This document shows, piece by piece, positions 48,299-58,683 of a DNA stretch of 64,000 bases (position 1 is the first letter of the stretch; each line of letters starts with the position of its first letter). Below the pieces are notes generated by a model, which was not told the origin of the DNA, did no database searches, and worked only from the letters and a program-made list of their open reading frames with translations. The translations under genes and the position numbers were made by a program. Origin of the DNA: a bacterium (GTDB lineage Bacteria > Desulfobacterota > Binatia > DP-6); contig JAHCID010000003.1 of assembly GCA_026129405.1 (NCBI GenBank), positions 582,001 through 646,000 of the forward strand, written 5' to 3'.

Positions 48299-49438
48299 TC
48301 ACTCCGTGGCCGTCACCGGTACGAGCGCGGGCCCGGCGCCCGCCACGACGGTGCGGTAGATCGATTCGATGCGGTCGAGCACGTGCTCCCACGCCTCGGG
48401 GCCCTCGACCGCGTGCCGGGCGGCCGTGCCGAGCCGGGCGCGGCCGGCGGGATCGCGCAGCAGCTCGACGACGACGGCGGCGAACGCCGCGGAGTCGCCG
48501 TCGGGCACGACACGCCCGGAGACGCCGTCGGCGAGACCCTTGGCGGAGCCGGCGCAGGCGACGATGGCCTTGCCGGCCGCCATGTAGTTCAGCAGCTTCA
48601 TGGGAAAGCCGGAGCGTTCGGCGCGCGGCAGGACGGCGACGTCCGCCCCCGCCAGGAGGCTCCGGACCTCATCGTAGGACCTCGCCTGCTCGATCTCCAC
48701 CCCCGGCCCCAGGAGGTCACCCTCGCGCAGGCGACGGGCTTCGGCGCGGGCGTCGTGGTGGGTCAGGAGGAGCAGGCGGGCCCGGGGCTCGGCCGCCCGG
48801 ATCGCGCGGAAGGTCTCCAGCAGGAACGCGAGGTTCTGGTAACCGTCGAGGTTGCCCGCGTAGCACACGAGCCCGCGCCCGGACTCCGGGCGCGGGACGG
48901 GCACCGTCTTGCGGACCTCGGCCGGCACCGAGGTCGGCTCGATGCAGGCGAGCGCCCGCTGCGCCACCCCGCCGCGGCGAAGATGCTCGCCCAGCTCGGG
49001 CGTCACCGCGATACAGTAGTCGGCCCGGCGCGGCACCTGGGTGTCGAGGAGATGGCCGAGCCGCCCGAGGAGCCGGCGCGTGCGGCGGCCGGAGACGTAC
49101 GTCGGCAGCTCCTCCGCCATGGCGCTGTGGCCGTGGTAGACGACCGGCGTCCCCGTGAGCCGTCCGACGATGAGCCCGGCGATCGCCGCCTCGTAGTTGT
49201 GCGCGTGGATCACGTCGATCGCGCGCCGGCGGACGTGACGCCACAGGCGCGCCACCAGGATCGCGTCGAGGACGACACGTCCCGGGCGCAGGCCGGGGCG
49301 GCGTCCGCGCCGCGCGCCGTAGGTGACCAGCGACACCTCGTGCCCGCGCTCCCGCAGGCCGAGCGCGAGATGCCCCACCAGCACCTGCGAGCCGCGCAGC
49401 GCGGGGTACGGCCCCGCCACGACGAGCGCGACCCGCAT
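48299..49438 (-). CDS. GT4 family glycosyltransferase
   Basis: A 379-aa GT-B protein: VAGPYPALRGSQVLVGHLA, DVIHAHNYEAAIAG, YAGNLDGYQN and the C-terminal NYMAAGKAIVA. It overlaps the upstream phosphodiesterase stop by one base and lies five bases before pdxA. Substrate unknown. Confidence 0.86.
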   Translation of the reverse strand: MRVALVVAGPYPALRGSQVLVGHLALGLRERGHEVSLVTYGARRGRRPGLRPGRVVLDAILVARLWRHVRRRAIDVIHAHNYEAAIAGLIVGRLTGTPVVYHGHSAMAEELPTYVSGRRTRRLLGRLGHLLDTQVPRRADYCIAVTPELGEHLRRGGVAQRALACIEPTSVPAEVRKTVPVPRPESGRGLVCYAGNLDGYQNLAFLLETFRAIRAAEPRARLLLLTHHDARAEARRLREGDLLGPGVEIEQARSYDEVRSLLAGADVAVLPRAERSGFPMKLLNYMAAGKAIVACAGSAKGLADGVSGRVVPDGDSAAFAAVVVELLRDPAGRARLGTAARHAVEGPEAWEHVLDRIESIYRTVVAGAGPALVPVTATE

Positions 49439-51105
49439 CAGGAGCCGGGCTCCAGATAGCCGAGCGCGGCGAGCCGCTCGGTGAGGATGCGTGTCTCCTC
49501 GGGCCCGAAGACGAGCGGCGTCGACGCCGGCGCCGGCACGCGATCGGCCTCCTCACGCGCGGCCACGGCGAGGGCGGCGCGGATGGGCCGACCGTCGAGT
49601 CCCCCCGGCACGGGCAGCCCGACGAGGGGCAGGAGCGTCGGCAGGACGTCCACGACGTCGGCGGCGGCGAGGCGCCCCCGCCCGTTCACACCGGGTCCGG
49701 CGAGCGCGAAGAGACCCTCGCGGCGATGCGTCCCGCTCGTCCCCGCGTCCTTGCCGGCGCCGTATTCGGCCGGGCTCAGCCGGCGCAGCGCGGGGCCCGG
49801 TCCCGCGCTGCGCAGGCAGGACGGGCGATAGCCGCGGTGCCAGGCCGGCTCGAGCAGGAGGTCGGGCGCACGCTCGGTCGCCGGCCCGTCGTAGATCTCC
49901 TCGCGGCGCCACACGCGCGCGACCACCGGGGCGCCGGCGGCGTCGCGCCAGTCGAGCAGCGCGGCGACGACCTGCGCGCGGACGCGCTCGTAGTCGGCCG
50001 GAGCGACGACGCCCTCGGGGTCGCGGTCGGCGCGGTTGATCCACACGCTCGGATGATAGTCGAGCTCCTCGGAGTACGCCTGCGTCCCGGGCCAGGCGAT
50101 CTGGCCGAGCCGTGCCATGCCCTCGAGACGTCCGGCGGTCTCCGGAGCCCGCCGCAGGATCGCGCCCTGGAGGCCGGTCGGTATCGCCCGCAGCGCGAGT
50201 CGCCGGGCGAGGCGCGCCGCGCCGCCGCCTGCCGTCCGGAACGCCAGCAACCCGCATTCGGCGAGGCGCCGGTTGAGGTGCAGGACGCGGTCGCTGGCGC
50301 CGCCGCTGCCGTGGTCGGAGACGACGGCGACGACCGCGTCGGGTCCGGCGGCGGCGACCAGGCGGCCGACGGCGGCGTCGAGCGCCGCGTACACGCGGCG
50401 GATCGCGTCGCCGTGCGGGCTCGCGGCGTGGCGCGGCGAGGCGGCGTCGTGGAAGCGCCAGAAATGGTGCGAGACGGTGTCGGACTCGCCGTAGACGACG
50501 ACCAGCGCATCGAGGTCGCCGCGGGCGAGCAGCGCCTCGGCCAGGCGCGTCCGCCGATCCACGCCGTCGAGCAGGCTCGCGAGCGCGCGCGCGTGCCACC
50601 CTGCCCCGGTGCGCACTTCCTGGAAGTCGGCGAACGGGAGCGTGCCGACGAGCCGGCGCACCTCGTCGTGGAACGCCGGCGGGTGCACGAAGGAGGCGTC
50701 GATGCGGGTCGTGAGCGGCGTGTCCCAGCCGCTCACCATGATCCCGTCGATCGGCTCCGGCGGATAGGTCGCGGGGACGGTGAGGACGGCGCAACGCCGC
50801 CCGGCGGCCGAGAGCCGGTTCCACAGGGCGGGCACGCGCCGGTGGCTCCCGTTCACGAAGCGCATGCGGTACGTGCCCGGGACGCGCTCCAGGAAGTCGA
50901 GCACGCCGTGGCGGCCCGGGTTGACCCCGGTCAGCAGCGACGTCCAGGCCGGGAAGGTCGCGGCCGGGATCGTCGAGCGCAGCGGGCCGAACGCACCGCG
51001 GGCGAGCAGCGCCCGCAGCGCCGGCAGGCGCCCCTCCGCCGCCCACGGCTCGACGAGGTCGAGGCCGGCCCCGTCGAGGCCGATGACGAGCAGAGGGGCC
51101 GCCAC
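49438..51105 (-). CDS. Type I phosphodiesterase/nucleotide-pyrophosphatase family protein
   Basis: A 555-aa alkaline-phosphatase-fold hydrolase. VIGLDGAG (Asp11 metal ligand), the nucleophile region PAATFPAWTSLLTG (Thr50 predicted), ESDTVSHHFW (Asp/His ligands) and VVSDHGSGG support activity. No signal peptide is seen. The GTG at 51105 lies five bases after the sulfatase-like gene. Ends GYLEPGS. Confidence 0.85.
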   Translation of the reverse strand: MAAPLLVIGLDGAGLDLVEPWAAEGRLPALRALLARGAFGPLRSTIPAATFPAWTSLLTGVNPGRHGVLDFLERVPGTYRMRFVNGSHRRVPALWNRLSAAGRRCAVLTVPATYPPEPIDGIMVSGWDTPLTTRIDASFVHPPAFHDEVRRLVGTLPFADFQEVRTGAGWHARALASLLDGVDRRTRLAEALLARGDLDALVVVYGESDTVSHHFWRFHDAASPRHAASPHGDAIRRVYAALDAAVGRLVAAAGPDAVVAVVSDHGSGGASDRVLHLNRRLAECGLLAFRTAGGGAARLARRLALRAIPTGLQGAILRRAPETAGRLEGMARLGQIAWPGTQAYSEELDYHPSVWINRADRDPEGVVAPADYERVRAQVVAALLDWRDAAGAPVVARVWRREEIYDGPATERAPDLLLEPAWHRGYRPSCLRSAGPGPALRRLSPAEYGAGKDAGTSGTHRREGLFALAGPGVNGRGRLAAADVVDVLPTLLPLVGLPVPGGLDGRPIRAALAVAAREEADRVPAPASTPLVFGPEETRILTERLAALGYLEPGS

Positions 51106-51109
51106 GCGA

Positions 51110-52969
51110 TCAGTCGAGGTAGCCGAGCGCGCGCAGCCGCTCCTTGGTGGCGGCGTCGACGTCGACCTGCCCGCCCGCGCCCTTGTGCTCGGACGCGACG
51201 AGATAGGCCTTGCCCAGGGCGGCGCGCATCTTCTCGACCTCGACCGGCTCGGCCTCCGCGAGGTCCTTCTGCTCGCCGGGGTCGGTGGCGACGTCGTACA
51301 GCTCCGTCTCTCTGAGTCCGCGCGGGTTGCCCTTGTTGGCGGTGATGAGCTTCGTCGTCTTCGAGCGAATCGCCTGCAGCGAGTTGCCCTCGAGGTCCTC
51401 CTCGGAGAAGACGTTCTCGCGCGCCGGCGCCGCGGCGCCGTTGAGCGGCAGCGCATGGCCCTGCATCACGGGCGGGATCGGCAGGCCGGCGCTCGCGAGC
51501 ATGGTCGGCGCGATGTCGAGGCTGGTCGCGAGCTCGTCGATGACGCTGCCGCGCGCGCCGCCGGCAGCGGGCTTCATGACGAGCGGCACGTGCGTCTGCT
51601 CGTCGTAGAGCGTGGTGCCGTGCCACCAGCCGCCGTGCTCGTGGAACTCCTCGCCGTGGTCGGCGGTGAGCACGATGAGCGTGTCGTCGTAGAGGCCGCG
51701 CTGCTTGAGGTCGTCGATGAGGCGGCCGACCTGGCCGTCGAGATAGGCGATCTCGCCGTCGTAGAGGTCGCTGTACTTCTGGGCGACGTCCGCCGGCGGG
51801 TTCGGGTTGGCTACGCGCGCATAGCCCTCGCCGTCGTACGGGTGCACGAAGTACGGATCGTGCGGATCCATGAAGTGCAGATAGAGGAAGAACGGGCCCT
51901 TCTTCGCGTTCGGGCCGCCGAGCCACTCGATGGCGCGATCCACCACCACCTGCGCGGGTTGGTAGTAGTTGTAGACGATGACCTGGCGCGCGAAGAAACG
52001 CTCGCGAACGAGACGCAGGCCGTTGTAGATCGTCAGCTTCGCCGCCGGCTCGTCGGCCCAGAAGAAGAGGTCGGGCGCCAGGTAGTGGAACTCGTCGAAG
52101 CCCTGCTGGAAGTTGAAGGCGGCGGTGACGTTGATGTTGTTCGGGAAGCCCGCGGCCCAGTAGCCGCCCTTGGTGAGCGCCTCGGCGATCGTCTCGACGC
52201 GGTCGGGCAGGATGTCGGCCTTGTGGATGGCGCCGTGCGACGACGGGTAGAGCCCGGTGAAGATGGTCGCGACCGAGGGCCGCGTCCACGACGCCTGTGC
52301 GAAGCTGCGTGCGGCGCGCACGCCGTCCGTCGCGAGGCTGTCGAGGTGCGGCGTCCTCGCCTTGGCGTAGCCGTAGGAGCCGAGACGGTCGGCGCGCAGC
52401 GTGTCGACCATCAGCAGGATCACGTTCGGCGCGTTGGCCGGGGCGGCCGCACGCTGCGCGGGCTCGGGCTGCGGTGGGCCCGGCATGGCGCGGGTCGCGA
52501 GCGACCAGCCGAGGGCGATCACGGCGACGAGGATCGCCGCCGGCACGGGGCGCGTCAGCAACCCGCGTCGCGCGTCGGCGCCGCGCAACGCGCGCCACAC
52601 GAGAACGCCGACGACGAAGGTCGCGAGCAGCGCCGCGAGCTGCACGACGAGCGTCATGGGCCCGCCCGGAAGCTGCTCGAGGAAGACGTCGCGGATGACG
52701 CGGAAGCGACCCACGACGAATCCCAGCCCCGCCCCGATCCCGGCCAGCGCGAGGCCGAAGCCGTCCGTGCGCAGGATCGCGGCGAGAATGCCGAGCCCGA
52801 GGCCGCCCGCGGCCCCGAGCAACCCGTAGGCAATCATTGCCCAGGCGATGGGCGGGAGCTCACCGGCTCCGTGCGTCGCCCACCACGATGCTACCGCCTC
52901 GCCGCCCCCCACGAGGGCGCCGGCCAGCAGTCCCCCTGCCAGTCCGGCTCCCAAAGCGCGCATACTCAT
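51110..52969 (-). CDS. Membrane-anchored sulfatase-fold enzyme with threonine at the nucleophile position
   Basis: A 619-aa protein: four or five N-terminal membrane spans (residues 1-165), then a large catalytic domain starting NVILLMVDTLRADRLG. The formylglycine site C/S-x-P-x-R is absent; instead ASWTRPSVAT offers Thr, as in phosphotransferases and phosphatases of this fold. FMDPHDPY and TADHGEEFHEHG metal motifs are intact. Probably modifies an extracytoplasmic polymer or lipid. The gene ends RALGYLD, similar to the next protein. Confidence 0.85.
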   Translation of the reverse strand: MSMRALGAGLAGGLLAGALVGGGEAVASWWATHGAGELPPIAWAMIAYGLLGAAGGLGLGILAAILRTDGFGLALAGIGAGLGFVVGRFRVIRDVFLEQLPGGPMTLVVQLAALLATFVVGVLVWRALRGADARRGLLTRPVPAAILVAVIALGWSLATRAMPGPPQPEPAQRAAAPANAPNVILLMVDTLRADRLGSYGYAKARTPHLDSLATDGVRAARSFAQASWTRPSVATIFTGLYPSSHGAIHKADILPDRVETIAEALTKGGYWAAGFPNNINVTAAFNFQQGFDEFHYLAPDLFFWADEPAAKLTIYNGLRLVRERFFARQVIVYNYYQPAQVVVDRAIEWLGGPNAKKGPFFLYLHFMDPHDPYFVHPYDGEGYARVANPNPPADVAQKYSDLYDGEIAYLDGQVGRLIDDLKQRGLYDDTLIVLTADHGEEFHEHGGWWHGTTLYDEQTHVPLVMKPAAGGARGSVIDELATSLDIAPTMLASAGLPIPPVMQGHALPLNGAAAPARENVFSEEDLEGNSLQAIRSKTTKLITANKGNPRGLRETELYDVATDPGEQKDLAEAEPVEVEKMRAALGKAYLVASEHKGAGGQVDVDAATKERLRALGYLD

Positions 52970-53050: not shown

Positions 53051-53305
53051 CTACTCGGGGAATTCGAGGTCGAGCTCGGCCGCGTCGCCGGTGACACGTA
53101 TGCCGCGCGGCGAGAGCTTGTAGAGATCCTGGGCCTTCCAATGCAGGAAGCGGTTCTGCTCGAGATCTTTCACGTCGGCCGCGATGGTCTCCCAGGCGAC
53201 CCCCATGCGCTCGGGGAGCTGGTCGCGGGCATGGAGGAACGGCGACTCCGGGGAGGCGTCGTAGACCTTGCGGTACTCGAGCAGGATGCGGCGCTTCTGG
53301 TTCAC
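53051..53305 (-). CDS. Small hypothetical protein, possible winged-helix (84 aa)
   Basis: An 84-aa protein with KRRILLEYRKVYDASP and a helix-turn-strand arrangement (GVAWETIAADVKDLEQNRFLHW, LSPRGIRVTGD) that resembles a winged-helix fold. It starts with GTG after GGGAGAA. Unknown role; it sits between the secreted paralogues and the sulfatase-like gene. Confidence 0.6.
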   Translation of the reverse strand: MNQKRRILLEYRKVYDASPESPFLHARDQLPERMGVAWETIAADVKDLEQNRFLHWKAQDLYKLSPRGIRVTGDAAELDLEFPE

Positions 53306-53369
53306 TGAGGGTTCTCCCGCGGGGCCGGCCGCGATCCACGGCCGACCCCGCCGATGTCGGGCCCGCGTT

Positions 53370-54554
53370 TCAGGACACGGACAGGATCATGTTGCCGGTG
53401 AAGGTTCCGGGGACGCTGTCGACCTCGATCTTGCACGACCCCGACGCGCCGGCGGGAACCGTGACCGTGAGGGTGTTCGAGCTCTTCGAGGTGATCGGCG
53501 CAGCGATACCACAGATCCGGACGTGGGTGGTGGAATCGAGGCTACAGTGGCTGCTGAGGGTGATGGTGTCGCCGACGCGCGCGACCTTCGGGCTGAAGTC
53601 GTCGAAGCAGACACAGCGTCCGCAGCAGCGTCCCTCGTTGCCCACGTCGGCCGTGATCGTATCGCCGACGAACTGACCGACGAGGCGGTTGCTGTGGCCG
53701 AGCGAGATCGTCGCCTCGGGAGCACAGATGCGCGCCGTCACGCGCGATTGCTTGCCGAGGTTCACCGCACCGGGGCCCTTCAGCAGCACCGTGACGTCGC
53801 CGCACTCGACGCCCACCGTGCTGGCGTTGTTCACCCGGAAGGCGGCGTCACGCCCCGGGGGGATCAGGATCGTGGCCGCGGAGGCCAGCACCGTGGCGCT
53901 CTTGCCGATCTTCACCTGGCAGAAGGTGAAGGTGCCGCTGCCCAGGATCGCCCGCGCGTCGTTGCGCACGTCGAGCACGCCGTAGCTCCCCGGCGGCAGG
54001 TCGCAGCGCTTGTTGCCCGGCGCCGTGTCGCCGATGCAGTCGGCATTGGGCTGCACCACCACGTCCTTCCCGGGCGTGCACGGCGGGAACGGCGTCGGGA
54101 AGCTGCACAGGGTCTCGATCACCGCCGGCTTCGGGGAGCAGCCGGGATCGCACGATCCCGGGATGAGCGGCGTCGCGAAGCCCTGGATGGGCGGCTGGCG
54201 CACCGTCACGTTGTCGAGCGGGCTCGAGTTGTTGCGGAACACCTGGAAGACGTCGGCACTCGGCTTGGTGAACTTGACCACGTCGCCGACGATCTGCGAG
54301 CCGTCGCCGAAGAACGCGCGGTCGAGCGTCATGGTGCCGCAGCTCGAGTTCGTGCTGGGCGACGCGCAGCTGGTGCCGACGTTGCAGCCGTCGGGCAGCA
54401 TCATGTCCTTCAGGCTGGCCGAGCGCAGCGCCACCAGGAAGTAGCTGCCGAGGTCACGCTGGAGCGCTTGTCCCCCGGCCGGATCCGCCGAACCGAGCGT
54501 CGCCAGTGCGACGCCCCCCATTCCACACCATCTCGCGATCGCACCAAAACGCAT
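53370..54554 (-). CDS. Secreted cysteine-rich paralogue 1 with C-terminal IPT/TIG-like domain
   Basis: A 394-aa exported protein. A signal peptide (to about residue 28) is followed by QRDLGSYF, a cysteine-rich region (PGSYG, ICAPEATISLGHSN, GQFVGDTITAD) that looks beta-helical, then RCCGRCVCFDDFSP leading into an Ig-like IPT/TIG domain (about 325-394, VTVPAGASGSC). About 20 cysteines suggest disulfides. GGAGG lies seven bases before the ATG. I do not recognise the N-terminal family. Confidence 0.75.
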   Translation of the reverse strand: MRFGAIARWCGMGGVALATLGSADPAGGQALQRDLGSYFLVALRSASLKDMMLPDGCNVGTSCASPSTNSSCGTMTLDRAFFGDGSQIVGDVVKFTKPSADVFQVFRNNSSPLDNVTVRQPPIQGFATPLIPGSCDPGCSPKPAVIETLCSFPTPFPPCTPGKDVVVQPNADCIGDTAPGNKRCDLPPGSYGVLDVRNDARAILGSGTFTFCQVKIGKSATVLASAATILIPPGRDAAFRVNNASTVGVECGDVTVLLKGPGAVNLGKQSRVTARICAPEATISLGHSNRLVGQFVGDTITADVGNEGRCCGRCVCFDDFSPKVARVGDTITLSSHCSLDSTTHVRICGIAAPITSKSSNTLTVTVPAGASGSCKIEVDSVPGTFTGNMILSVS

Positions 54555-54798
54555 CTGGCACCTCCCTGTGCGCCGTCCGTTTCGGGCCGAACGCCCCGCG
54601 TCCCGCTGCCGCGCGGGGCTTCCTGCCGCCGCCCTACCGCACTCCCCTGCCGGCGAACTCCTCGCCGGCACCTCTCGACGCGAGCCCCGGAACGCGCGCG
54701 GGCGGAACCACCATCTCGGCGGCTCCGCCCGCGGTTGCTCCGTCAGATCGGAATCTGCTGGAACCGGATGTGCTGCGTGATGCTCGTCAGGTCGCTTC
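54555..54798. other. 244-base gap between paralogues 1 and 2 with two hairpins
   Basis: Two perfect inverted repeats: 54649-54656 with 54662-54669 (8 bp, five-base loop) and 54698-54706 with 54724-54732 (9 bp, 17-base loop). Neither is followed by a U-run. No gene seen. Confidence 0.5.
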
Positions 54799-55983
54799 TC
54801 AGTTGACGGTCAGCTTGCTGAAGCCGAGGAAGCTGCCCGCCGGGCTCTCGAAGACGACGTTGCAGGCACCGGCGGCACCCGCCGGGACCGTGAACTTCAG
54901 CTCGAGCGGCGTCTTCACGGTGATCGGGGCGTCGAAGCCGCAGACGGTGACCTTGGTCGTCGCCATCATGTCGCAGGTGCCGGTGGCCGTGATGGTGGCA
55001 CCCACCGACGCCGTGGTCGGCGCGAACGAGTCGTAGCAGGAGCACCGTCCGCCGCAGCACTGGCCGCGGTCGTTCAGGTCCGCGTTGACGACGTCACCGA
55101 CGAACTGCCCGATGAGGGTGTTGTTGTGGCCGAGCTTCACGTTCGACTCGGGCGCACAGAGCTTGGCGGCGATCAGCGAGTTGCGGCCGAACGACACCTG
55201 GCCGCTGCCCGTCACGTGGACCGTGAAATCGCCGCAGCCGCTACCCAGGTCGTTGTTGTTGTTCAGCTTGAAGAAGCCGTTGTTGACGTTGATTTGGACC
55301 CCGGTGCCGCTGATGATGACGCTCTTGCCGCTCTTGAAGTTGCACACGTTGTACGTGCCGGGGCTCATGTTCAGGCGGGCGCCGTTGAGGACGTTGATCA
55401 GGCCGTAGGTACCCGGCGGCAGGTCACAGGCCCCGTTGCCCGGGTTCGTGTCCATGATGTCGCAGTCGCCGTTCGGCGGCACCTTGACGTTCTTGGTCGG
55501 GTCGCAGGCCGGGAACGGATTCGCAAATCCGCAGGCGGCCCGCAGCGCGGCGACGTCCGGGACGCAGCCGCTGCAGGTGCCGGGGATGATCGGCGTGTCG
55601 AACGGGGTCGGCGGCGGAAGCCCGATCGCCACGTTCGCGAGCGAGCTGTCGTTGTTGCGGAACAGCTGCCAGATCTTGGCCGGGGCCTTGCGGAAGAAGG
55701 TCGCGTGGCCGACCGTCTGGCTGCCGTTGGCCTGGGTCGTCGCGCCGAAGCTCAGCTGGCCACACTGCGAGAAGTTGCCGCTGACGCCGCAGTTCACTCC
55801 GATGTTGCAGGCGGAGTCGAGCTGCATGTCCTTCAGCGTCGCCTTGCGCTGGGCCAGGATGAAGTAGGACGCCAGGTCGCGGCGCAGGGGCTGCGCGTAG
55901 GCCGACGGCGTCAGCATGGGGCCGGCGACGGCAATGGTGAGTGCTGCCGCCAGCCCGATCTTGATGGTGTTCAGGGTGCGCAT
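54799..55983 (-). CDS. Secreted cysteine-rich paralogue 2 with C-terminal IPT/TIG-like domain
   Basis: A 394-aa exported protein starting at ATG 55983 (a GTG at 56010 would add nine residues). Signal peptide to AYA, then RRDLASYF. Shared blocks with its neighbours: NIGVNC, GLINVLNGARLNMSPGTY, LCAPESNVKLGHNN, GQFVGDVVNADLNDRGQCC and the final IPT/TIG domain. It is the same length as paralogue 1. The asparagine-rich middle is unlike the rest of the window. Confidence 0.75.
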   Translation of the reverse strand: MRTLNTIKIGLAAALTIAVAGPMLTPSAYAQPLRRDLASYFILAQRKATLKDMQLDSACNIGVNCGVSGNFSQCGQLSFGATTQANGSQTVGHATFFRKAPAKIWQLFRNNDSSLANVAIGLPPPTPFDTPIIPGTCSGCVPDVAALRAACGFANPFPACDPTKNVKVPPNGDCDIMDTNPGNGACDLPPGTYGLINVLNGARLNMSPGTYNVCNFKSGKSVIISGTGVQINVNNGFFKLNNNNDLGSGCGDFTVHVTGSGQVSFGRNSLIAAKLCAPESNVKLGHNNTLIGQFVGDVVNADLNDRGQCCGGRCSCYDSFAPTTASVGATITATGTCDMMATTKVTVCGFDAPITVKTPLELKFTVPAGAAGACNVVFESPAGSFLGFSKLTVN

Positions 55984-56011
55984 GTCGGTGGTCTCCTTCG
56001 CCTTCGCCACG

Positions 56012-57259
56012 TCAGTTCACCGTGAGGGTGGTGGAGCCGGTGAAGACGCCGGAGAGGCTCTCCACCTTGACCGTGCAGGCGCCGGAAGCGCCGGCCGGTA
56101 CGGTGAAGACCAGCTCCGTGCTCGACTGCGTCACGATGGGGGCCGCGAACGAGTTGAGGCCGCACTGCAGGACCACACCGGTGGCCGCCCCGAGACCGCA
56201 GTTGCCGGTCATGGTGACGTTCTGGCCGACGCTCGCCGTCACCGGCGACAGCGAGTCGAAGCAGGCACAGTTCCCGGTTTCCTCGCAGCAGAAGCCGCGA
56301 TCGTTCGAGTCGGCGTTGACCACGTCGCCGAAGTAGCGACCGGTCAGGTTGTTGTTGTGGCCGAGGCGGATGAGACGCTCGGGGGCGCAGAAGAAGCCGT
56401 TGATGTCGGAGTCGCGGCCGAAGCCGATGACGCCCCCACCGTTGCCGAAGACCTCGATCTTGCCGCAGTCCTGAGCCGGCGCCGGGCCGAAATCGGTGCC
56501 GTTCTTCAGGTCCATGTCGCCGTTCAGATAGATCGTCGTCTTCCCCGATGCGGTGATGTCGGCGTTCTGCCCGGCGAGCAGGTTACAGACGGTGTAGGTC
56601 CCGCCGATGAAGTTCAGCTTGGCGGCATTCTGGATCGAGATGTTACCCCAGACGCCCGGCGCGAGGTCGCAGATGCCGTTGCCAGGAATCGGATCGTTGA
56701 TGATGACCGGGCAGTCCGAGTTCGGCAGCACGACGATCGACTTGGTCAGATCGCAGGCGGGGAACTGGGCGGGGAAGCCGCAAGCGGCATACAGGTCGCC
56801 GTAGTCCGGCACGCACTGCTGGTTCTGCGTCCGGCAGCTCGGCACGCCGTCGCCGTCGACGTCGCCGAGGATCGGCGGCACCCAGGACTGCACCGGCGGC
56901 GCACCGATGGTGACGTTCGGCAGACCGGACGGCCGGTTGGAGAACAGCTGCCAGATCGACGCCCCGGGCCGGTTGAACCGGGTCATGTCGCCGACGATCT
57001 GCGAGCCCCGGTCGTAGGTGGCGTTTTCGTGCGTGACCACGCCGCACGACGAGTTCGTCGCCGGCTGGGCGCAGTTCGCGCCCGTGTTGCACGCACCGTT
57101 CAGTTTGAAGTTCTTCAGGCTGACGTTGGTCATCCCGAAGATGAAGTACGACCCGAGGTCGCGCTTCAGCGGCTGCGCCGACGCGACCTGCGCGCCGACC
57201 GCGAGCGTTGCTGCGACCACGATCGCAGCCCGGCCGAGCCGGCTCGTACGAGCTCCCAT
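56012..57259 (-). CDS. Secreted cysteine-rich paralogue 3 with calcium-type loop and IPT/TIG-like domain
   Basis: A 415-aa exported protein, first of the three in transcription order. Signal peptide to ASA, then KRDLGSYF. It has an extra insertion with GDVDGDGVPSC, an EF-hand/thrombospondin-like calcium loop, absent in the other two. FCAPERLIRLGHNN, GDVVNADSNDRGFCC and the terminal IPT/TIG domain are shared. A strong AAGGAGG site and a promoter precede it. Confidence 0.75.
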   Translation of the reverse strand: MGARTSRLGRAAIVVAATLAVGAQVASAQPLKRDLGSYFIFGMTNVSLKNFKLNGACNTGANCAQPATNSSCGVVTHENATYDRGSQIVGDMTRFNRPGASIWQLFSNRPSGLPNVTIGAPPVQSWVPPILGDVDGDGVPSCRTQNQQCVPDYGDLYAACGFPAQFPACDLTKSIVVLPNSDCPVIINDPIPGNGICDLAPGVWGNISIQNAAKLNFIGGTYTVCNLLAGQNADITASGKTTIYLNGDMDLKNGTDFGPAPAQDCGKIEVFGNGGGVIGFGRDSDINGFFCAPERLIRLGHNNNLTGRYFGDVVNADSNDRGFCCEETGNCACFDSLSPVTASVGQNVTMTGNCGLGAATGVVLQCGLNSFAAPIVTQSSTELVFTVPAGASGACTVKVESLSGVFTGSTTLTVN

Positions 57260-57289
57260 TGATTGCCCTCCTTCGCAACGAGGCGACCG

Positions 57290-57345
57290 CGGTTCGTACG
57301 GCGCCCGGGGCGCATAGGTAGCACGAACCGTACCTCGACTGTCAA
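57290..57345 (-). promoter_or_regulatory. Promoter region with inverted repeat upstream of the secreted paralogues
   Basis: A perfect -35 TTGACA (57345-57340) after an A/T-rich stretch; the best -10 is TACCTA (57320-57315, 19-base spacer). An inverted repeat CGGTTCGT (57290-57297) / ACGAACCG (57323-57330) flanks a GC palindrome and overlaps the -10, a possible operator. Confidence 0.5.
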
Positions 57346-57384
57346 GAAAAATGGGAGGGCAGAAGCGCGGAATCCCGTCGGAAT

Positions 57385-58683
57385 CTACAATCGGATTACG
57401 TTGTCACCCGTGCATCCCTGCAAGGCGTTGCGGGTATCCACGACCAGCGGCGCGGCCTTCTGGATAGCAGCATAGTCGATCCCCGGGTGCGCCGTGAGGA
57501 TCACCACGCAATCGATCGCCCCCATGAACCCGTTCTTGGCCTCGACCGAGCTCAGCTCGAAGCCCTCGTCGTGCATGTGGGGAATATAGGGATCCGTGTA
57601 GGAGAGGATCGCGCCCTTCTCCTGGAGGAGCTTCATCACGGTCAGGGCGGGCGACTCCCGGATGTCATTGACGCCGGCCTTATAGGCGACGCCCATCACG
57701 TGGATGCGCGACCCGCGCACGCTCTTCTGGTGCCGATTGAGCGCGTCGGTGACCTTCTCCACCACGAAGCGCGGCATGCTCTCGTTGATGGCGCCGGCGA
57801 GCTCGATGAAGCGGGCGTCGAAGCCATTCATCTTCGCCTTCCACGAGAGGTAGAACGGATCGATCGGGATGCAGTGCCCGCCGAGGCCCGGGCCGGGGTA
57901 GAACGGCATGAACCCGAACGGCTTGGTCTTGGCGGCGTCGATCACCTCCCAGACGTCGACGTTGAGGGCACCGCACATCTGCGCGAGCTCGTTCACGAGG
58001 CCGATGTTGACGCTGCGGAAGGTGTTCTCGAGCAGCTTCACCATCTCCGCGACCTGGGTCGACGACACCGGGATCACCGTGTCGACCGACGCCTCGTAGA
58101 GGCTCTTCGCGACCTGGGCGCAGGAGGGCGTCGTGCCGCCCACCACCTTCGGGATGTTCTTGGTGTTGAAGCGCTCGTTGCCCGGGTCGATGCGCTCGGG
58201 CGAGAACGCGAGCGCGAAGTCGGTGCCGACCTCGAGCCCCGACGACTCGAGCGCGGGGCGCACGACCTCGTCGGTCGTGCCCGGGTAGGTGGTGCTCTCG
58301 AGAATCACCAGCATGCCCTTGTGCAGGTACTGCTTGATCTCGTTCACCGCCGAGACGACGTAGGTGAGGTCCGGATCCTTCGTCTTCCGCAGCGGCGTCG
58401 GCACGCAGATGTTCACCGTGTCGAGCTCGCGGATGACGGAGAAGTCGTTCGTCGCGCGGAACTTGCCGGCCTTCACCGGCTCCGCGATCTCTTCGTCCTT
58501 GGTGTCGACGATGTACGACTTGCCGGCGTTGATCGCCTTGATCTTGCTCTCGTCGAGATCGATGCCGGTCACCTTGAACCCGGCGCGCGCCAGCTCGAGG
58601 GCGAGCGGCAGCCCGACGTAGCCGAGTCCGATCACGCCGCAATGCGCCTCGCGGCGCTCGATCTTCTTGATGAGGTCCTGCAT
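57385..58683 (-). CDS. Nucleotide-sugar 6-dehydrogenase (WbpA/VipA-like)
   Basis: A 432-aa NAD-dependent enzyme oxidising a UDP-sugar to its uronic acid. GLGYVGLPL Rossmann loop, VPTPL, ESTTYPGTT, and the catalytic cysteine in GPGLGGHCIPIDPFYLSWKAK-type context place it in the UDP-GlcNAc/ManNAc branch. It follows CobW by 12 bases and supplies precursors for a surface glycan. Confidence 0.92.
   Translation of the reverse strand: MQDLIKKIERREAHCGVIGLGYVGLPLALELARAGFKVTGIDLDESKIKAINAGKSYIVDTKDEEIAEPVKAGKFRATNDFSVIRELDTVNICVPTPLRKTKDPDLTYVVSAVNEIKQYLHKGMLVILESTTYPGTTDEVVRPALESSGLEVGTDFALAFSPERIDPGNERFNTKNIPKVVGGTTPSCAQVAKSLYEASVDTVIPVSSTQVAEMVKLLENTFRSVNIGLVNELAQMCGALNVDVWEVIDAAKTKPFGFMPFYPGPGLGGHCIPIDPFYLSWKAKMNGFDARFIELAGAINESMPRFVVEKVTDALNRHQKSVRGSRIHVMGVAYKAGVNDIRESPALTVMKLLQEKGAILSYTDPYIPHMHDEGFELSSVEAKNGFMGAIDCVVILTAHPGIDYAAIQKAAPLVVDTRNALQGCTGDNVIRL

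Follow-up and report, generated by a model that had tools for sequence, protein, structure and literature searches.

Putatively secreted cysteine-rich proteins with a predicted DUF3494-like solenoid and an IPT/TIG domain, encoded by a tandem gene trio

The gene trio and its surroundings

The window, a 64,000-nt stretch of DNA, contains three adjacent paralogous genes. Their features and those of the borders are as follows:

53051..53305, reverse strand: conserved 84-aa ORF, downstream border of the inserted trio
53370..54554, reverse strand: 394-aa B-type member, the second of two, 244 nt past the first B gene
54799..55983, reverse strand: B-type member, 394 aa, with the architecture of the A gene minus the DxDGDG insert
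56012..57259, reverse strand: A-type member, 415 aa; signal peptide, predicted DUF3494-like beta-solenoid (~residues 33–326) with a DVDGDGVPSC loop, Cys-cluster hinge and IPT/TIG domain (~327–415)
56834..56866, reverse strand: coding sequence for residues 132–142 of the A member, the calcium-type loop GDVDGDGVPSC
57290..57330, no strand: inverted repeat CGGTTCGT/ACGAACCG, 8-bp arms, 25-nt loop
57340..57345, reverse strand: TTGACA hexamer, for which a consensus scan gave no -10 partner
57385..58683, reverse strand: UDP-glucose/GDP-mannose dehydrogenase family gene, upstream border of the inserted trio

All three genes are intact, start with ATG and encode Sec-type signal sequences, in agreement with the initial annotation, which had described three paralogues of 415, 394 and 394 aa with signal peptides. 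The first B gene (54799..55983) begins 28 nt past the A gene. Its product, hereafter the 54799 protein, matches the other two members with E-values of 2.4e-96 and 1.4e-101, and the level of pairwise identity of the trio proteins is ~42–48%. The shared motifs described earlier were also found, in the forms RDL[GA]SYF and CAPE...LGH[NS]N. The dN/dS of the closest pair is about 0.37, which indicates constraint; positive selection was rejected.

The gene calls in the neighbourhoods of this and the other clusters were made with a simple codon-usage script. The ORF of 84–85 aa, for which no Pfam match was found in the window copy (53051..53305), occurs near the dehydrogenase gene in four genomes. 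In three of them (G003, G001 and G005) the two genes are adjacent without the trio, at distances of 82, 12 and 12 nt. The trio was presumably gained in this lineage; its loss in all three others would be the less simple reading. The location next to surface-glycan genes had been pointed out before and is correct; its significance, however, is probably incidental. Since the same glycan block lacks the trio in three relatives, the glycan setting is no guide to function, and membership of the trio in a glycan operon was rejected. The other clusters of the family have unrelated neighbours. Two adjacent genes of the alkaline phosphatase superfamily (Phosphodiest and Sulfatase) lie at 49438–52969 of the window, within a block that is conserved family-wide. 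In the G001 and G005 genomes, a further gene of ~655 aa separates the Sulfatase gene from the 85-aa ORF.

As for the putative promoter, a TTGACA element overlapping an inverted repeat had been proposed. The hexamer is present, but 53300–57500 yielded no sigma-70-type pair, and the 8-bp arm length of the repeat was reached in 77 of 1000 shuffles and is not significant. In the sequences preceding the other clusters, nothing resembling the inverted repeat was detected. A regulated promoter with an operator is therefore unsupported beyond the TTGACA hexamer. The gap between the two B genes (54555–54798, 244 nt) contains several GC-rich inverted repeats with 10-bp arms (CGCGGGCGGA), a 17-nt loop and no T run.

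Two protein types and their pairing

The proposed survey of copy number and neighbours was carried out and revealed ten full-length members at four sites of the genome. About eight remote relatives are located within longer proteins of the same genome, several of them with Thr-rich linkers. A related genus (G003) carries one pair, and a genome from another family of the class (G012) carries one member; among 148 genomes of the class, full-length close members were detected in these three only. A peptide-pattern search of 84,980 named genomes confirmed no relatives. Plasmids gave no family match, nor did viral contigs when screened with peptide patterns, and spread by plasmids or phages was rejected on these grounds.

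The DVDGDG loop had been regarded as a feature of the first gene only. This is true within the trio, but the loop marks a whole type: DxDGDG is conserved in seven of seven A members, with D133, D135, G136, D137 and G138 invariant in the A-type alignment, and is absent from the five B members. The idea of a calcium loop as a quirk of a single gene was replaced by this A/B split. The A and B types each required only one change in all of the 200 bootstrap trees (100%), with moderate branch support (85/78); most of the family tree is poorly resolved. Each of the four multi-gene sites has a B gene trailing an A gene, with gaps of 28, 4, 11 and 7 nt; other neighbouring members are spaced by 233–275 nt, compared with 4–28 nt for A–B. 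The family is probably lineage-restricted and composed of two types, with the adjacent A-then-B gene pair as its unit. The gene behind the C2 A–B pair (L033:10396-11544) lies outside the family; its product has a Thr-rich tail and DUF7450 repeats (E 8.2e-20).

The earlier description of the proteins as cysteine-rich holds for the whole set, as exactly 19 mature cysteines (after the signal peptide) were counted in 12 of 12 close members. The remote G012 member has 21. Given the odd number, at least one cysteine must be unpaired within the chain, and it could be a buried free thiol.

Predicted fold and remote kinship

AlphaFold2 models were constructed for the B type (alignment of 13 members, mean pLDDT 87.5) and the A type (alignment of 18 rows, mean pLDDT 89.3). 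Both consist of one continuous beta-solenoid, residues ~35–311 in B and ~33–326 in A, followed by an Ig-like domain. Thus, the beta-helix-like core proposed in the initial annotation appears in the models as a beta-solenoid, and the structure prediction suggested there yielded a DUF3494-like solenoid with an IPT/TIG domain.

The terminal Ig-like domain was assigned correctly. IPT/TIG (PF01833) scores 22.2 and 24.8 bits in two trio members, above the cut-off of 20.9, and 16.5 in the third, and the C-terminal domain models match TIG domains with a fold Z of about 12–13. This domain is the same by sequence and fold as the IPT/TIG domains of CGTases, plexin and Met; unlike them, it contains three conserved cysteines (337, 348 and 374 in the 54799 protein). 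A sequence search of solved structures gave the TIG domain as the sole match. The HMM search succeeded for TIG in two of the three proteins; the solenoid-related profiles Ice_binding, DUF7305 and pAdhesive_15 gave the trio no match over their cut-offs.

The N-terminal region, which could not previously be assigned to any family, is placed in the same solenoid by the models and by profile–profile comparison. When aligned by VIA-align, residues 35–311 of the B model superpose on DUF3494 ice-binding proteins with Z 17.7 (2.8 Å, 193 residues); the A-type model gives Z 17.9 with 3wp9, 17.8 with 4nu2 and 15.2 with ComZ. The entire solenoid, N-terminal region included, is superposed on DUF3494 proteins and on ComZ. 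Foldseek by itself gave weak E-values (best 1.8e-3), so the match depends on re-alignment and topology. In both models first coils are followed by a short helix and then by further coils, which is the order of first coils, short helix and remaining coils described for DUF3494 (PMC10796529). The predicted models thus have the solenoid fold of DUF3494, including the coil order and the helix (Z 17.7–17.9 to several solved members), in the arrangement seen in the PF11999 proteins FfIBP, Colwellia AFP and LeIBP. According to the models, the N-terminal region supplies the opening coils of a solenoid with the DUF3494-like ice-binding-protein fold and is no new domain. A characterised fold family has been matched, but not one that supplies a known role, so that the idea of an unassignable region is refuted in part by the standard that the initial annotation had set.

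Sequence kinship is detectable via remote relatives only. The profile of the remote relatives compared with DUF3494 proteins of the same phylum scores 49.1 (P 1.6e-6), whereas the best of 60 column-shuffled controls scores 21.3; the N-terminal segment alone gives 24.0 against 14.9 for the controls. The close-member profile alone is marginal, at 22.5 against 17.9 for shuffled profiles. The YVLFA...K......GDVGVN segment of the remote relatives, which belong to the same class, stands in the place of YFIFA...LKN....CNxGVNC of the close members and reveals the identity of the N-terminal region. It is of the same kind as the VLA...GDxGVs-type N-terminal segment of DUF3494. The predicted structure and the remote relatives together support remote homology to DUF3494. 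The differences are considerable: the level of identity is about 10–15%, there is neither a PF11999 match nor an ice-motif array, CNxGVNC replaces GDxGVs in the close members, and the 19 cysteines and the TIG domain are additional.

Weaker similarities to other families were also found. DUF7305 (PF23981) covers the second half of the trio solenoid and leaves the first half uncovered; its similarity is sub-threshold in 12 of the 13 members, with E 1.9e-5 at best, and the scores (best 25–26.3 bits) always stay below the 27-bit cut-off. The putative ice-binding-like adhesive domain pAdhesive_15 (PF20597, cut-off 23.8 bits) matches two of 13 members weakly, at E up to 1; the trio is below the cut-off, with 15.7 bits for the 53370 protein. 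A clear copy of this domain (E 2.7e-46) is present in a 615-aa protein of the same genome (L041:3844-5691, G000:C4), where a Thr-rich linker connects it to a remote trio-type solenoid.

Ligand, ice or DNA: the proposed role

The fold is in itself no demonstration of function, and the roles considered here are inferred. One reading is that these are true ice-binding members of the DUF3494 family, with an antifreeze or ice-adhesion role, whose secretion would curb ice growth round the cell; the nearest solved structures are indeed nearly all ice-binding proteins. T-A/G-x-T/N is the ice-binding motif. T[AG]x[TN] counts are at chance (0–1 per protein) and Thr makes up only about 4–9% of the solenoid, while Ice_binding (PF11999) was matched neither by the trio in hmmscan at E 10 nor anywhere in the genome at E 10. 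Because of the missing PF11999 match and the lack of motif excess, ice binding by the trio proteins appears unlikely from their sequences. The fold also occurs in ComZ, which its authors related to FfIBP with DALI; they saw no conservation of the ice site and demonstrated DNA binding (PMC6561018). Taken together, this makes the antifreeze reading very improbable.

By analogy, ComZ is a precedent for a non-ice, pilus-tip receptor role of this fold, and the trio proteins might be similar receptors for DNA or another polymer, tied to a pilus or secretion machine. The extracellular ComZ solenoid of the bacterium Thermus thermophilus (6qvi) belongs to the same solenoid class, has long loops and superposes with Z 15.2 on the B model, and on both models over about 235–240 residues. 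The DNA binding of ComZ and the weak DUF7305 similarity also fit this reading, as the sole control genome matching DUF7305 is a Thermus. However, the ComZ solenoid is inserted in a pilin, whereas that of the trio proteins is free-standing and accompanied by TIG. Neither the type IV pilin leader nor the N-terminal pilin helix of ComZ was found in them; the solenoid directly follows an ordinary signal peptide. In addition, there are no obvious pilin genes beside any cluster, and the charge of the solenoid is roughly neutral to acidic. We consider a ComZ-like role quite doubtful.

The reading we prefer is that the trio encodes secreted binding or matrix proteins with a DUF3494-like solenoid and a TIG domain, probably made as A–B pairs. 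Each protein would comprise a single solenoid, a Cys-rich hinge and one IPT/TIG domain, with intramolecular disulfides stapling the solenoid. After the signal peptide, the outer membrane could be crossed through a type II secretin, since one is encoded in the genome (GspD over the cut-off). The A and B proteins would be made together, perhaps linked through the unpaired cysteine, and would act outside the cell as ligand binders or matrix components, with putative calcium binding by the A loop. The L041 protein, which joins a remote solenoid copy to pAdhesive_15, was counted in favour of this reading.

A periplasmic location is also possible, since the trio proteins have no anchor or sorting signal. 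They would then be structural proteins of the periplasm or envelope with stabilising disulfides and not exported adhesins, and signal peptides and many cysteines suit an oxidising compartment. However, the domain also occurs in long relatives, whose repeats and Thr-rich linkers are of a kind typically found on exposed surfaces, so the periplasmic reading seems rather unlikely. Of the surface or appendage set suggested by the initial annotation, the surface or extracellular part stays the best guess, but the N-terminal region is not a novel domain. A bolder extension of the secreted A–B reading, which we regard as speculative and improbable, is that B proteins and A proteins, the latter binding calcium, form covalent heterodimers or polymers through a conserved cysteine left unpaired in the chain, and that these coat or link cells. 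Such a two-component system would build on a re-purposed ice-binding-protein fold.

These data provide fold and family context for proteins that are named only partly in sequence libraries. They would extend the DUF3494-like solenoid beyond ice binding, with a free-standing example beside ComZ that has a probable non-ice role.
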